From assembly GCF_016900375.1 (NCBI RefSeq), contig NZ_JACJKB010000009.1, forward strand, positions 1-64,000: a stretch of DNA of 64,000 nt, in the 5' to 3' direction. This DNA comes from Collinsella tanakaei (GTDB taxonomy: Bacteria > Actinomycetota > Coriobacteriia > Coriobacteriales > Coriobacteriaceae). A program made the position numbers and the translations under genes. This document shows, in pieces, positions 6,763 to 63,733 of the stretch. How positions within the stretch are numbered: position 1 is the first letter of the stretch; every line of letters starts with the position of its first letter. Under the pieces are notes generated by a model. That model was not told where the DNA came from and did no database searches. It saw nothing but the letters and a program-made list of their open reading frames with translations.

Positions 6763-6969
6763 GTGGACAAAAGGGGTCGAATATGTATCTTTTCCCTGGC
6801 GGCTCGGGCTCTTCGCAGCGCTTGGCGCCCCGGGACAGGCCCCAGATGAAGACGATTTAGCCCTAATCGGCACCTCGAAGGCTGCTATTCACATAGAAAC
6901 GGGCGGGGATTGCCGCCAAGCCGGCCCTCCCCGCCCGCGAAAAAGTACATATCTGGGCACTTTGTCCAC
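6763..6969. repeat. about 207-bp element with GTGGACAAA / TTTGTCCAC ends
   Basis: The left end reads GTGGACAAAAGGGG and later ATATGTA. The right end is an inverted copy, with ACATATCTGGGCACTTTGTCCAC spread over 6947-6969. A second element with the same ends, orientation and similar length (194 bp) lies at 47108-47301. The inside has no open frame that looks real. Matching ends with different insides suggest a MITE-like non-autonomous element, or paired operators. Confidence 0.55.
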
Positions 6970-20722: not shown

Positions 20723-20902
20723 TTGGCCTCTTTGGGGACGTAGCCAGAAGAGGCCAAACTTGTCCACTTTCAGGACGGAGATGAAAGTGGACATTCTCCG
20801 CTTCCGACAGCGGGCCCTCAAGATGCCCCCTGCCGGCCACGCCCCAAAAGGGCCGCAGCCGGCAGAACATGTCCACTATCATCTCCGTCCTCAAAGTGGA
20901 CA
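20723..20902. repeat. compound inverted-repeat element
   Basis: Two 33-nt arms (20761-20793 and 20870-20902) are inverted copies at 31 of 33 positions, and each arm is itself a hairpin (GTCCACTTTC / GAAAGTGGAC). A separate hairpin TTGGCCTCTT / AAGAGGCCAA (20723-20757) stands before them. Its GGCCTC-TTGGGGACGTAGCC core recurs in the 62417-62574 element. The right arm ends 31 bp before the M20 dipeptidase start, so it may lie in its leader. Confidence 0.65.
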
Positions 20903-24612: not shown

Positions 24613-24764
24613 TGACAGTTAGGACGGGGTCCACTGTCATGCTTTTGCGGCCTTCTGCCCCTGCGGGCGGAAGGCCGTTTTATTTGAGCGACAAGATGGT
24701 GCCAGGTACAAACTTGTCGACGGCCCGCGGTTTTCATGACACTGGGCCCCGTCCTAACTGTCAT
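24612..24764. repeat. inverted-repeat element with ATGACAGTTAGGACGGGG ends
   Basis: 30-nt arms (24612-24641 and 24735-24764) match at 28 positions. Inside are the yitT terminator and a second hairpin CGACAAG/CTTGTCG around the text GTGCCAGGTACA, a phrase typical of REP-like repeats linked to Y1 transposases. One more copy of the right arm stands alone at 37381-37410. The left arm overlaps the yitT stop codon. Confidence 0.65.
24648..24685 (+). terminator. rho-independent terminator of yitT
   Basis: CGGCCTTC (24648-24655) pairs with GAAGGCCG (24670-24677), with inner GCCC/GGGC pairing, followed by TTTTATTT. It lies inside the inverted-repeat element. Confidence 0.8.
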
Positions 24765-46886: not shown

Positions 46887-46904
46887 TCAGCAGCCCACGG
46901 CTGC

Positions 46905-46984
46905 CTGGTAAACCCCTTACCCAGTCGGTTGTGACGCTTTTCGGGCAAATCTGTCACAAACGACCGGGTAAGCTGTTTTACCAA
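46905..46984. repeat. long palindrome, TTTACCCGGTCGG family, second copy
   Basis: Arms at 46917-46935 and 46953-46971 match at 17 of 19 positions, with an outer pair TGGTAAA/TTTACCA. Same core as 1709-1766, and it also follows the 3' end of a gene. Confidence 0.65.
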
Positions 46985-47107: not shown

Positions 47108-47301
47108 GTGGACAAATTGCCCAGATATGTACTTATTCGCAAGGTCCCGGCGCCATTCTGGGCATCGCCTTGATAGAACAGCCCTTTGAGCAGGCACCGG
47201 ATAACATAATATGTATTGCATAAGCGCTCCAGAGTAGCACGCTTCGCGGAAATCGCTCGTGGGTGCCACCCGTTTAATACATATCTGGGGGATTTGTCCA
47301 C
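47108..47301. repeat. 194-bp element with GTGGACAAA / TTTGTCCAC ends, second copy
   Basis: Left end GTGGACAAATTGCCCAGATATGTAC, nearly the same as the inverted right end of the element at 6763-6969; right end ATACATATCTGGG then TTTGTCCAC. GGCTCGG and CCGAGCC just outside extend the inverted match. It lies upstream of metF, where its ATATGT boxes could affect the promoter. Confidence 0.55.
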
Positions 47302-53301: not shown

Positions 53302-53357
53302 AGTCGCCATCCCCGATTGCCCGCTATCGCACACGTCATTGTAACGAACCGTCTGCG

Positions 53358-53470
53358 CACGTGAAAGTTCGGGGACAGGTCCGAAACTTTCATGCCGCCG
53401 GAAGACGATTCGACACGTTGGGTTTCGCTTTGGCGTGAAAGTTTCGGACCTGTCCCCGAACTTTCACGTG
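53358..53470. repeat. inverted repeat with 35-bp perfect arms
   Basis: Arms 53358-53392 and 53436-53470 are perfect inverted copies around a 43-nt loop. Each arm contains TCGGGGACAGGTCCGAAAC, itself partly palindromic. It sits between the divergent glycosyltransferase and PFL genes, just 61 bp before the PFL start. Confidence 0.75.
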
Positions 53471-53530
53471 CCCAGGTGGTTCGCTAGAATGGGTGCAGCA
53501 ATAAGCATCCGCACGAACGAAGGAGCGCTC

Positions 53531-61827: not shown

Positions 61828-62271
61828 TTAAGCCTCCAGCTCGATCTTAGTGGGGTTCTGAGCAGTGTGCGGATGCTCGGGGCCAGCGTAGACCTTGAGC
61901 TTCTTCAGCTGCTGACGACCAAGCGTGGTCTTGGGGAGCATGCCGCGGACGGCGCGCTCGATGACCTTCTCGGGGTGCTTCTCCATGGCCTGACGGAACG
62001 TCTCGGCCTTGAGACCGCCGTTGTAACCGCTGTGACGGTAGTAGACCTTCTGGTTGGCCTTGTTGCCGGTAAGCTGGACCTTATCGGCGTTGATGACCAC
62101 CACGAAGTCACCGCAGTCAGAGTTGGGGGTGAACTGGGGCTTGTTCTTGCCGCGCAGGATCATGGCGATCTGAGTGGCAAGACGGCCCAGGACAGCGCCC
62201 TCGGCATCGACGAGGACCCAATTGCGGGCAACCTCACCCTGCTTGGCGTAGTGAGTCGACTTCTGAATCAC
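61828..62271 (-). CDS. rplM: 50S ribosomal protein L13
   Basis: A 147-residue L13. [20 protein letters not shown] and [18 protein letters not shown] are the family signatures. The frame is open back to 62475, but I choose GTG 62271, 4 nt after AGGAG and past the promoter at 62339-62366, so earlier starts cannot be used from that promoter. Confidence 0.97.
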
Positions 62272-62338: not shown

Positions 62339-62366
62339 ATTATAGCGCGCCCATACAGGAGGTCAA
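62339..62366 (-). promoter_or_regulatory. promoter of rplM-rpsI
   Basis: On the minus strand TTGACC (62361-62366), 16 bp, then a perfect TATAAT (62339-62344). The leader would be about 60 nt. Confidence 0.8.
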
Positions 62367-62416: not shown

Positions 62417-62574
62417 GGACATCCCGCCGCCGCGGGCAGGCTGGCCTCTCTGGGGACGTAGCCGGGAGGCGCCACGCCGGGGATTCCGGATGGTAGCTTT
62501 GCCGCAGTCGCCGGCGTGGCGCCTCCCGGCTACGTCCCCAGAGAGGCCAGCCTGCCCGCGGCGGCGGGATGTCC
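62417..62574. repeat. inverted repeat with 64-bp perfect arms
   Basis: Arms 62417-62480 and 62511-62574 are perfect inverted copies around a 30-nt loop. The arm contains GGCCTCTCTGGGGACGTAGCC, shared with the 20723 element, and CTCCGTCCTGAAAGTGGACA follows the right arm, also like the 20761 arm. It separates the rplM promoter from the patatin gene. The longest perfect palindrome in the window. Confidence 0.8.
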
Positions 62575-62611
62575 GAAAACACCTCCGTCCTGAAAGTGGA
62601 CACGCGGCTGG

Positions 62612-63481
62612 TCAGGCGAGGAAGGACTTGATGTCCGCGAGACGGCGGGTGCACTCCTGGCGACCCTGGATGTAGAGGTCGAGCAGCTTGGCGGTATCGT
62701 GCTCGATGTGCCCCACCTCGACCGGGCGGCGCGGGGCGAGCACGAGGGCACGACCCTGCTCCTCGTAAGCCCAGATATGCTCGCGCTGCTCGTTGTAGCG
62801 CTCGTGGCGGTTCTCGATGGCCTCGAGCAGATAGGGGTACTCGCCATAGCGCGCCCGCGCGGCGGCCATCAGCTCGTAGGGCCCCTTCACGTAGGCGCGA
62901 TGGCGCGTGAGCACCACGACCGCGCGATCGTAGCCGGCGTCTTCGAGCACGTGCTCGATGGGAACGGAATCCGCCACGCCGCCGTCCAGGTACAGGTGCC
63001 CGTCAATCTCCACCGGAGGGGCCATGAGCGGCAGCGACGTCGAGGCGCGCACGGCGTCGATATCGAGCACGGCGTTCTTGATCTCGAGATACGCCGCCGT
63101 TCCGAACACGATATTGGTCGCCGTAGCCACGAGCGGCATGGGGTTTGCCAGGTACGCATCGTTATCGAAGGGGTCGAGACGGTCCTGCACGTCGTTCAAC
63201 ATGAAGTCGTAGCCGATGAAGCTGCCGCTGCGCGCGAACGAGCGCGTGCCCATGTAGCGCTCGTCGTTGCAAAACGCCAGGTTCACGCGGTTGGGGCGGC
63301 CGATCTGCCGCGATTTGTAGGAAAGGCCGTTCAACACGCCGGCGCTCACGCCATAGCAGGCGTCCGGCCAGATACCGTGCTCCATGAGGACATCGAGCAC
63401 GCCCGCCGTGAACTGCCCGCGAAAGCTGCCGCCCTCGAGGATGATCGCCGTCTTGCCCGCATTCGCCGCACGCTCGTCCAT
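62612..63481 (-). CDS. patatin-like phospholipase
   Basis: A 289-residue patatin-fold hydrolase without signal peptide. IILEGGSFRGQFTAG is the oxyanion-hole loop, Ser46 in YGVSAGVL the nucleophile and the Asp of YLDGGVADS its partner. The C-terminal part is helical and charged. Start ATG 63481, with GAAGGGCG upstream; the frame extends 19 codons further but without a ribosome site. Lipid acyl hydrolase of unknown substrate, commonly single genes in gut actinomycetes. Confidence 0.9.
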   Translation of the reverse strand: MDERAANAGKTAIILEGGSFRGQFTAGVLDVLMEHGIWPDACYGVSAGVLNGLSYKSRQIGRPNRVNLAFCNDERYMGTRSFARSGSFIGYDFMLNDVQDRLDPFDNDAYLANPMPLVATATNIVFGTAAYLEIKNAVLDIDAVRASTSLPLMAPPVEIDGHLYLDGGVADSVPIEHVLEDAGYDRAVVVLTRHRAYVKGPYELMAAARARYGEYPYLLEAIENRHERYNEQREHIWAYEEQGRALVLAPRRPVEVGHIEHDTAKLLDLYIQGRQECTRRLADIKSFLA

Positions 63482-63733
63482 ACTGCGCCCTTCGTTTTCG
63501 TTGCGTGGTTTTTCCTCTTCTACCACAAACGGCGGCACCGCAAACCTCCCCCGCGTCCAGATGGATGCGAAACGGCGGAATGGACAGCCTCCTATCCGCC
63601 GTTTGCCGTATGCTTAAGAGACAGACGACCTCCCATTGAACAATGGATCATCTCGGCGCGCAGATTCGCGCGCGGCGATCGGATGCTCTCGCGAGCGACA
63701 ATCCCGACCGCATGGAAGGGCAGGTGAAGCTCG
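63482..63733. other. divergent control region of the patatin and MFS genes
   Basis: 252 bp with no visible gene. No clear hairpin or repeat. A -10-like TATGCT is present near 63610. Confidence 0.3.

Follow-up and report, generated by a model that had tools for sequence, protein, structure and literature searches.

The organisation of REPINs, together with compensatory changes, is known from Pseudomonas (PMC3116915). In a related line of work, Di Nocera 2013 described moderately abundant TIR families, many of which occur in dimers or clusters (PMC3733652), and 20 of the 26 TIRYTs of that study were assigned by Quentin 2018 to TnpA_Y1 subclass 2.1, which the same author equates with RAYT group 1 (PMC6006769). 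Automatic and manual searches reported in the latter paper did not detect any REP-like sequence next to genes of subclass 2.1 (PMC6006769). REP dimers within palindromes are represented by the GTAG-15 family of Anabaena and the CGTC-1 family of Halothiobacillus (PMC3733652), and cleavage of single-stranded REPs in vitro has been reported for RAYT groups 2 and 3 (PMC8266576). The origin of REP and REPIN families, and the way in which they remain symmetric, is still an open question. In BIMEs, a single REP family is combined with motifs of other kinds.

The elements described below, which were encountered in a window of 64,000 nucleotides from Collinsella tanakaei, can be classed as REPIN-like and assigned to the TIRYT branch of RAYTs. 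They share with the REPINs presented in the cited parts of PMC3116915 the inverted doublet, the many extragenic copies, the conserved ends, the less conserved middle of fixed length, the compensatory changes and the presence of a transposase in the same genome. They differ from them by perfect arms of up to 91 bp among the loci fetched, by several families nested in mirror order and by a transposase from another branch. The likeness to the TIRYT/TIRtron systems, as outlined in the parts of PMC3733652 and PMC6006769 considered, concerns the enzyme (about 250 aa, with NHVH, FQ and Y-x-x-x-NP motifs and a weak C-terminal helix-turn-helix signal, which stays below cut-off here) as well as the repeats, which are dimeric and carry GGGAC in 17 of the 22 repeat-sharing loci. 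One family here occupies 142 places and joins composites, unlike what is described for these systems. A REP dimer within an outer palindrome is also found in GTAG-15 and CGTC-1, where the cited sections report one outer palindrome per family, whereas up to three families occur per hairpin here, with mirrored junctions at several positions. Finally, the REP mosaic and the alternating orientation are reminiscent of BIMEs as sketched in PMC2817692, from which the present elements are distinguished by the concentric arrangement of distinct families. Among the papers listed by ranked literature searches, subscription papers aside, none links Collinsella with REP, RAYT or REPIN, and none describes a hairpin in which several families linked to transposases are nested.

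The very long perfect palindrome pointed out by the earlier note at 62417-62574 was recovered as such, with 64-bp arms complementary at 64 of 64 positions and a 30-nt middle that pairs partly (Table 1). Repeat comparison shows it to consist of two inverted copies of family A, a repeat of 33 nt. A unit of a second repeat, family B, overlaps the last 5 bases of the right arm, and the left arm stops inside the same B sequence. Folded as single-stranded DNA, positions 62417-62602 reach -112.6 kcal/mol, to be compared with -44.8 +/- 3.2 for 200 shuffles (z -21). The same note had proposed that the palindrome shares its modules with an element at 20723, in a different order. The difference in order is confirmed, since the modules read A>B>B< at about 20724-20902 and A>A<B< at about 62442-62602. 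The sharing holds in part. The GGGGACGTAGCC part, found in the window at 20734(+), 62452(+) and 62528(-), does lie inside the palindrome. The TGAAAGTGGACA part lies outside it: this part belongs to family B, in the unit that adjoins the palindrome end with the 5-base overlap, and the corresponding GAAAGTGGACA is found in the window at 20761(-), 20783(+) and 62592(+).

Table 1. Repeat units and neighbouring features in the window
Feature	Positions	Strand	Basis or detail
Single family A unit	20724..20756	+	repeat comparison, pattern search
Family B unit, perfect stem	20761..20793	+	hairpin, pattern search
Inverted partner family B unit	20870..20902	-	pattern at 20880-20902
Nested pair F>D>F<: D unit (24690-24718) inside inverted F pair	24614..24762	.	
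Inverted family C pair, 60-nt arms, 90%	53337..53491	.	family C flanks P0003 (L002)
rplM, ribosomal protein L13 (presumed)	61828..62271	-	GTG start at 62271
Promoter-like site of rplM	62339..62366	-	TATAAT 62339-62344, TTGACC 62361-62366, 16 nt apart
Left arm, perfect palindrome	62417..62480	+	64/64 complementary to 62511-62574
Family A unit TGGCCTCTCTGGGGACGTAGCCGGGAGGCGCCA, 33 nt, within left arm	62442..62474	+	repeat comparison, pattern search
Palindrome middle, inner part of 40-nt tip	62481..62510	.	tip common to nine 85-nt-spacing elements, mean pairwise identity 0.72
Right arm, perfect palindrome	62511..62574	-	complementarity to left arm
Family A unit, inverted, within right arm	62517..62549	-	repeat comparison, pattern search
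Family B unit	62570..62602	-	23-nt pattern at 62580-62602, one mismatch
Patatin-like gene (presumed)	62612..63538	-	palindrome just past its stop

The palindrome sits between a gene that is taken, from its sequence, to be patatin-like and the promoter-like site of a gene presumed on the same basis to be rplM, encoding ribosomal protein L13. Similar promoter-like sites are visible by eye before rplM in relatives. A role of the palindrome as a leader or attenuator of rplM was considered and ruled out by the promoter-like TTGACC/TATAAT pair that separates the two. More generally, there is no sign in the sequence of a regulation of rplM, because the palindrome is located upstream of that site. It may act as a terminator for the patatin-like gene. 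The rplM locus was fetched 29 times from 42 relatives, and 27 of these loci were readable, L121 and L126 being left out as out of register. The palindrome is absent before rplM in all 27, and in 25 of them (by eye) the patatin-like gene stops shortly before the promoter region of rplM. One relative (L118) has 20-nt arms of a different sequence, 136 nt apart, and the relative G029 has at this site a 17-nt TGTCCCCAGAGAGGACA, which looks like a remnant or a small copy of its own repeat.

With at most 3 mismatches, family A was found in 142 places of the 2.48-Mb genome, which is assembled in 87 contigs with the window on contig C76, and its reversed control in none; family B was found in 82 places of this genome and in one place each of G029 and G026. 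At 2 mismatches, the 43 genomes of the genus gave 135 family A matches in the source genome (G000), six in G029, one each in G028, G039 and G040, and none in 38; the reversed control matched once each in G003, G020 and G029 at this setting, so that single matches are at the level of chance. A scan of named genomes for the repeat core returned eight stretches, of which seven hold single matches, taken for chance, and one, L112 from an uncultured Collinsella sp., an inverted pair. The counts of A pairs, spacings, nesting orders, stem mismatches and genic contexts given here refer to the first 100 of the 142 places as listed, together with the window; the stem-mismatch count also took in loci of family C and of the E variant. 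Most of these 100 places belong to inverted pairs, among whose distances 47, 63, 85 and 129-135 are examples of values that recur, and nine A elements, including the palindrome of the window, have a spacing of exactly 85. The fetched loci contain 41 head-to-head A pairs. Their longest perfect arms measure 91 bp (L014), 88 bp (L041) and 84 bp (L070), and the mirror symmetry extends beyond the A core for 1 to 55 nt, varying among elements. Among 45 A clusters examined, 42 lie outside coding-like frames, with 27 between tandem, 10 between convergent and 3 between divergent genes, and 2 in an unknown context.

A search for a TnpA-REP-like gene returned four genes above the Pfam cut-off for Y1_Tnp (P0001 to P0004), each with its own flanking palindrome. 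P0001 (C1:180430-181173) has a family A unit upstream and, directly downstream, an inverted A pair with 40-bp perfect arms. P0003 is flanked on both sides by family C, P0004 by family D and P0002 by family E. The flanking repeats of P0001 and P0003, families A and C, are dispersed, and a variant of family E occurs in 16 places. By their flanks, none of the four Y1 genes is cognate to family B, the most frequent partner in the composites, and family F was unseen beside all four. P0001 is a protein of 248 aa with the motifs NHVH, VFQG and YIHDNP (D for L), which fits TnpA_Y1 subclass 2.1 by length and motifs, the subclass being marked by NHVH, FQ and Y[IV]HLNP and by a size of around 240 aa. H60, H62, Y119 and N123 are invariant across 23 aligned Y1 proteins, and P0003 reads YITNNC at the Y-x-x-x-N[PC] motif. 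The AlphaFold2 model of P0001 (pLDDT 89.4) has helices from 187 to 247, and its best PDB match in a structure search is 4er8 (E 4.1e-7, TM by target 0.73), a RAYT bound to a REP hairpin; the sequence itself has no PDB match at E 0.01. Scores for NCBIfam NF047646, whose cut-off is 80, are 81 (P0002), 76.1 (P0004), 53.5 (P0003) and 51.5 (P0001). C-terminal helix-turn-helix matches, all below cut-off, were obtained with HTH_23 for P0001, HTH_68 for P0002 and HTH_38 and others for P0003, and there was none in P0004. In a separate observation, P0003 (L002:1232-2385, contig C1 of G000) lies between 166-nt inverted repeats with one mismatch, each containing a tRNA-Ala(GGC) gene; these surroundings look like a mirrored duplication around the gene.

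The repeats themselves were compared with known REPs. The 5' GT[AG]G was not found at the hairpin foot: GTAG is located inside the A unit, was unseen by eye in families C, D and E, and is not conserved in the repeats at the syntenic places of G029 and G039. The family A repeats would therefore not be counted as canonical REPs. In the comparison with GGGGWSAS, family C has GGGGACAG, family A GGGGACGT and family D GGGGCCAG.

The association of transposase and repeat extends to the genus, where 71 transposase matches were obtained and 33 loci examined. Both flanks share a repeat in 22 of these 33 loci. Left out of the 22 are L081, L082, L089 and L099, whose locus windows overlap at contig ends, and L103, a weak case with a truncated gene; a shared flank repeat is absent in six loci (L076, L083, L084, L093, L094 and L104). 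When contig-end loci are set aside, a repeat is shared in 23 of 29 loci, the weak L103 being added, against 62 of 812 cross-locus flank comparisons. The syntenic gene of G029 shares 57% identity with P0001, and no closer protein was found in the 42 other genomes of the genus; no P0001 relative was confirmed by a contig scan of named genomes, in which records near the source genome may be missing. The enzyme and the repeat seem to change together, because this G029 gene adjoins a related but changed repeat, TGTCCTC with GGGGACGGGG. A repeat similar to it is found in G039. A second repeat family, observed next to genes in L088, L090 and L091, is dispersed, with 6 to 69 copies, in 22 of the 43 genomes and has no copy in G000. 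The kind of gene that it adjoins was fetched from four of those 22 genomes, and the family and its gene may part ways. This second family forms palindromes with arms of 34-39 nt in 15 of 17 stretches, which come from other genomes including one in a single contig; the exceptions are L194, without a palindrome of that family, and L201, with 27-nt arms. In a palindrome family of the genus other than that of the window (L195, L198, L199, L202, L203, L206 and L207), a middle of 52-53 nt that is similar by eye lies in both directions, as does the middle of the window's family.

The earlier note had ascribed these modular repeats to spread in trans by a Y1 (REP-associated) transposase. This idea is supported by the A-flanked gene, the copy numbers of families A and B and the structural match to 4er8, so that the refuting outcome named in the note, a genome lacking a related transposase or additional copies, did not arise. 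The palindrome is very probably a REPIN-like non-autonomous mobile element, the cognate enzyme of which would most likely be the Y1 transposase P0001; the link is one of association, the pairing of family A with P0001 is known from one genome, and neither target duplications nor excision or movement were observed. By analogy with the known family, the transposase would bind the single-stranded hairpin, cut beside it by means of its tyrosine and move the pair. Cutting by P0001 is a prediction here, because this protein belongs to another branch than groups 2 and 3.

The concentric nesting of the families, the junctions mirrored in several cases and the agreement between arms go beyond that first idea. 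Among the fetched loci, the cluster orders were A>A< (16 cases), A>A<B< (5), B>A>A<B< (4), B>A>A< (3), B>A>E>E<A< (3) and A>E>E<A< (2). Single cases of C inside A, F>D>F< and D>A<D< were observed, as well as seven tail to tail and C beside A, and many A pairs carry B on one side only. The E variant is inside A pairs in 12 of its 16 places (6 of 7 pairs), and no A was seen inside C or E in these loci. As read from these orders, the families are nested concentrically, B lying around A and A around C or E. One and the same C tip is joined to A at three positions, after TGGGGA (L173), after GTAGCCGG[AG]AGG (L161 and L165) and after the full unit followed by CCGCG (L171), and the junction is mirrored on the other arm each time. 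The junctions of L163, L167 and L169 are not mirror-symmetric.

The two arms of a given element agree with each other, and the arms of different elements differ. The variable core dinucleotide, of which there are five variants, is the same on both arms in 40 of 41 head-to-head A pairs. At the next 12 positions, 467 of 492 comparisons agree; when the arms were re-dealt 2000 times, the agreements averaged 366 and reached 393 at most. This test is inflated by the shared descent of subfamilies. Stem mismatches amount to 24 of 1893 positions in 42 A palindromes which differ from each other, the poorly paired stem ends having been trimmed by a rule that favours few mismatches. The middles of the nine 85-nt elements are recognisably one sequence, with a mean agreement of 72%. 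Since the stems are nearly free of mismatches while the middles agree at this level only, the elements look old, with arms whose likeness is preserved by correction or by selection acting on the core. In the same nine elements, the inner 19 nt run into the middle and for that reason have slightly more differences between arms (2.56) than between elements (2.28), a comparison that gives no support for arm maintenance. One orthologous site could be compared between G029 (L112) and G000 (L191). Its flanks are 94% identical, a CT/AC difference is mirrored on both arms, and one of the two tips is 4 nt long, the second about 40 nt. Substitution of another copy for the hairpin as a whole and copying from arm to arm would explain this difference equally. 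The 94% identity of this stretch may be set beside the 77-93% of the other stretches compared between the two genomes, and a recent transfer of it is possible.

Tolerance of hairpins of this size was considered through SbcCD. None of the 43 genomes of the genus has an SbcD match (TIGR00619) over the cut-off of 77.65, and two match at E 0.001 (21.7 and 19.7 bits); 13 of the 14 control genomes match, 8 of them over the cut-off. SbcC (TIGR00618) is matched at E 0.001 by 43 of 43 genomes, none over the cut-off, which is a weak test as just one of 14 controls passes. The match in G000 (28.9 bits) falls in a 1189-aa frame presumed from its size to be SMC. The genus thus appears, from these profile searches, to be without SbcCD. 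Long hairpins are probably tolerated for this reason, and palindromes of about 160-220 bp may persist owing to the absence of SbcCD. SbcCD of E. coli does cut the hairpin formed by an interrupted palindrome of 246 bp, and the cited part of that work mentions such cutting just with artificial palindromes, longer than the natural ones of this organism (PMC3315005).

Several mechanisms can be envisaged for the long nested palindromes. The sequences show a mirror order in the nesting of families linked to different transposases, and arms that differ jointly from those of other elements. Both kinds of change would occur in the folded hairpin, in which a single join or copying step would give two mirrored changes once unfolded. 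In a tentative form of this proposal, hairpins would be exchanged and renewed in the folded state: the stem of one family would capture the tip of another by a single join, catalysed or triggered by the Y1 transposases, and ever longer concentric palindromes would be built from several transposase systems and maintained without SbcCD. In a rival reading, somewhat less likely than not, the transposase would spread the short repeats only and polymerase template switching would make the long palindromes: the nascent strand would fold back at a hairpin and copy its own upstream DNA, producing perfected arms, mirrored junctions and an invertible middle. Template switching is described as homogenising the arms of inverted repeats and inverting their spacers (PMC8604942, in the part cited). 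The shared middle of the 85-nt elements does occur in both directions, 5 versus 4 on the contig strand, which insertion either way would give as well, and its direction relative to a single B neighbour is mixed (one way in the window, L008 and L038, the other way in L021 and L061). The 166-nt inverted repeats around P0003 are in keeping with template switching too, as are the varying mirror extents past the A core, which the loss of one outer side could also produce. Against it stand the three mirrored positions of the C tip in A and the regular order of nesting, which together suggest a recombination step with preferred partners.

The nesting might also result from target choice alone, each family inserting independently into the single-stranded tip of an existing hairpin. 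This reading, which is rather unlikely, accounts for the E pairs inside A pairs (6 of 7) and for the occurrence of F>D>F< and D>A<D<; the copies may nevertheless derive from a few events that were later amplified, and the mirrored truncation of A around C (L173, and L161/L165 elsewhere) would need an added symmetric loss. Selection for an RNA hairpin, such as a terminator or a protector of mRNA 3' ends, is improbable as the cause of arm identity. Compensatory changes are known in REPINs (PMC3116915, in the part cited), and 37 of the 45 A clusters lie between tandem or convergent genes, a raw count without genome baseline. However, G-T is not in excess over A-C among the arm mismatches (7 and 8 of 24), a strand-blind comparison that is not decisive, and element-specific B-A spacers are identical between arms in L041 and L069, though not in L065. 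The earlier note had mentioned an assembly artefact as a possible source of the perfect arms. The genome is in 87 contigs, two of which end inside A palindromes, but this is the opposite of false joining; with element-specific variants common to both arms, real mismatches elsewhere and palindromes of the same build but shorter arms in other genomes, including one in a single contig, an artefact is very improbable.

Dozens of related hairpins, mirrored junctions, one differing orthologous pair, matching transposases and an apparent natural SbcCD-negative background are offered together by this genome, which makes it possible to test how arms are corrected, how tips are exchanged and what limits the length of a palindrome. 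It is also suggested that the transposase branch reported without REPs in the cited sections of Quentin 2018 can carry large REPIN-like populations.

Other repeats were observed in the window. A 33-nt GCGAAAAAGTACATATCTGGGCACTTTGTCCAC, which is not palindromic-looking, occurs at 6937-6969 and 47108-47140, the two copies being inverted, 94% identical and 40 kb apart. Inverted copies of 38 nt are found at 1743-1780 and 46902-46939 with 79% identity, and the first of these serves at the same time as right arm in a local inverted repeat (1699-1776).
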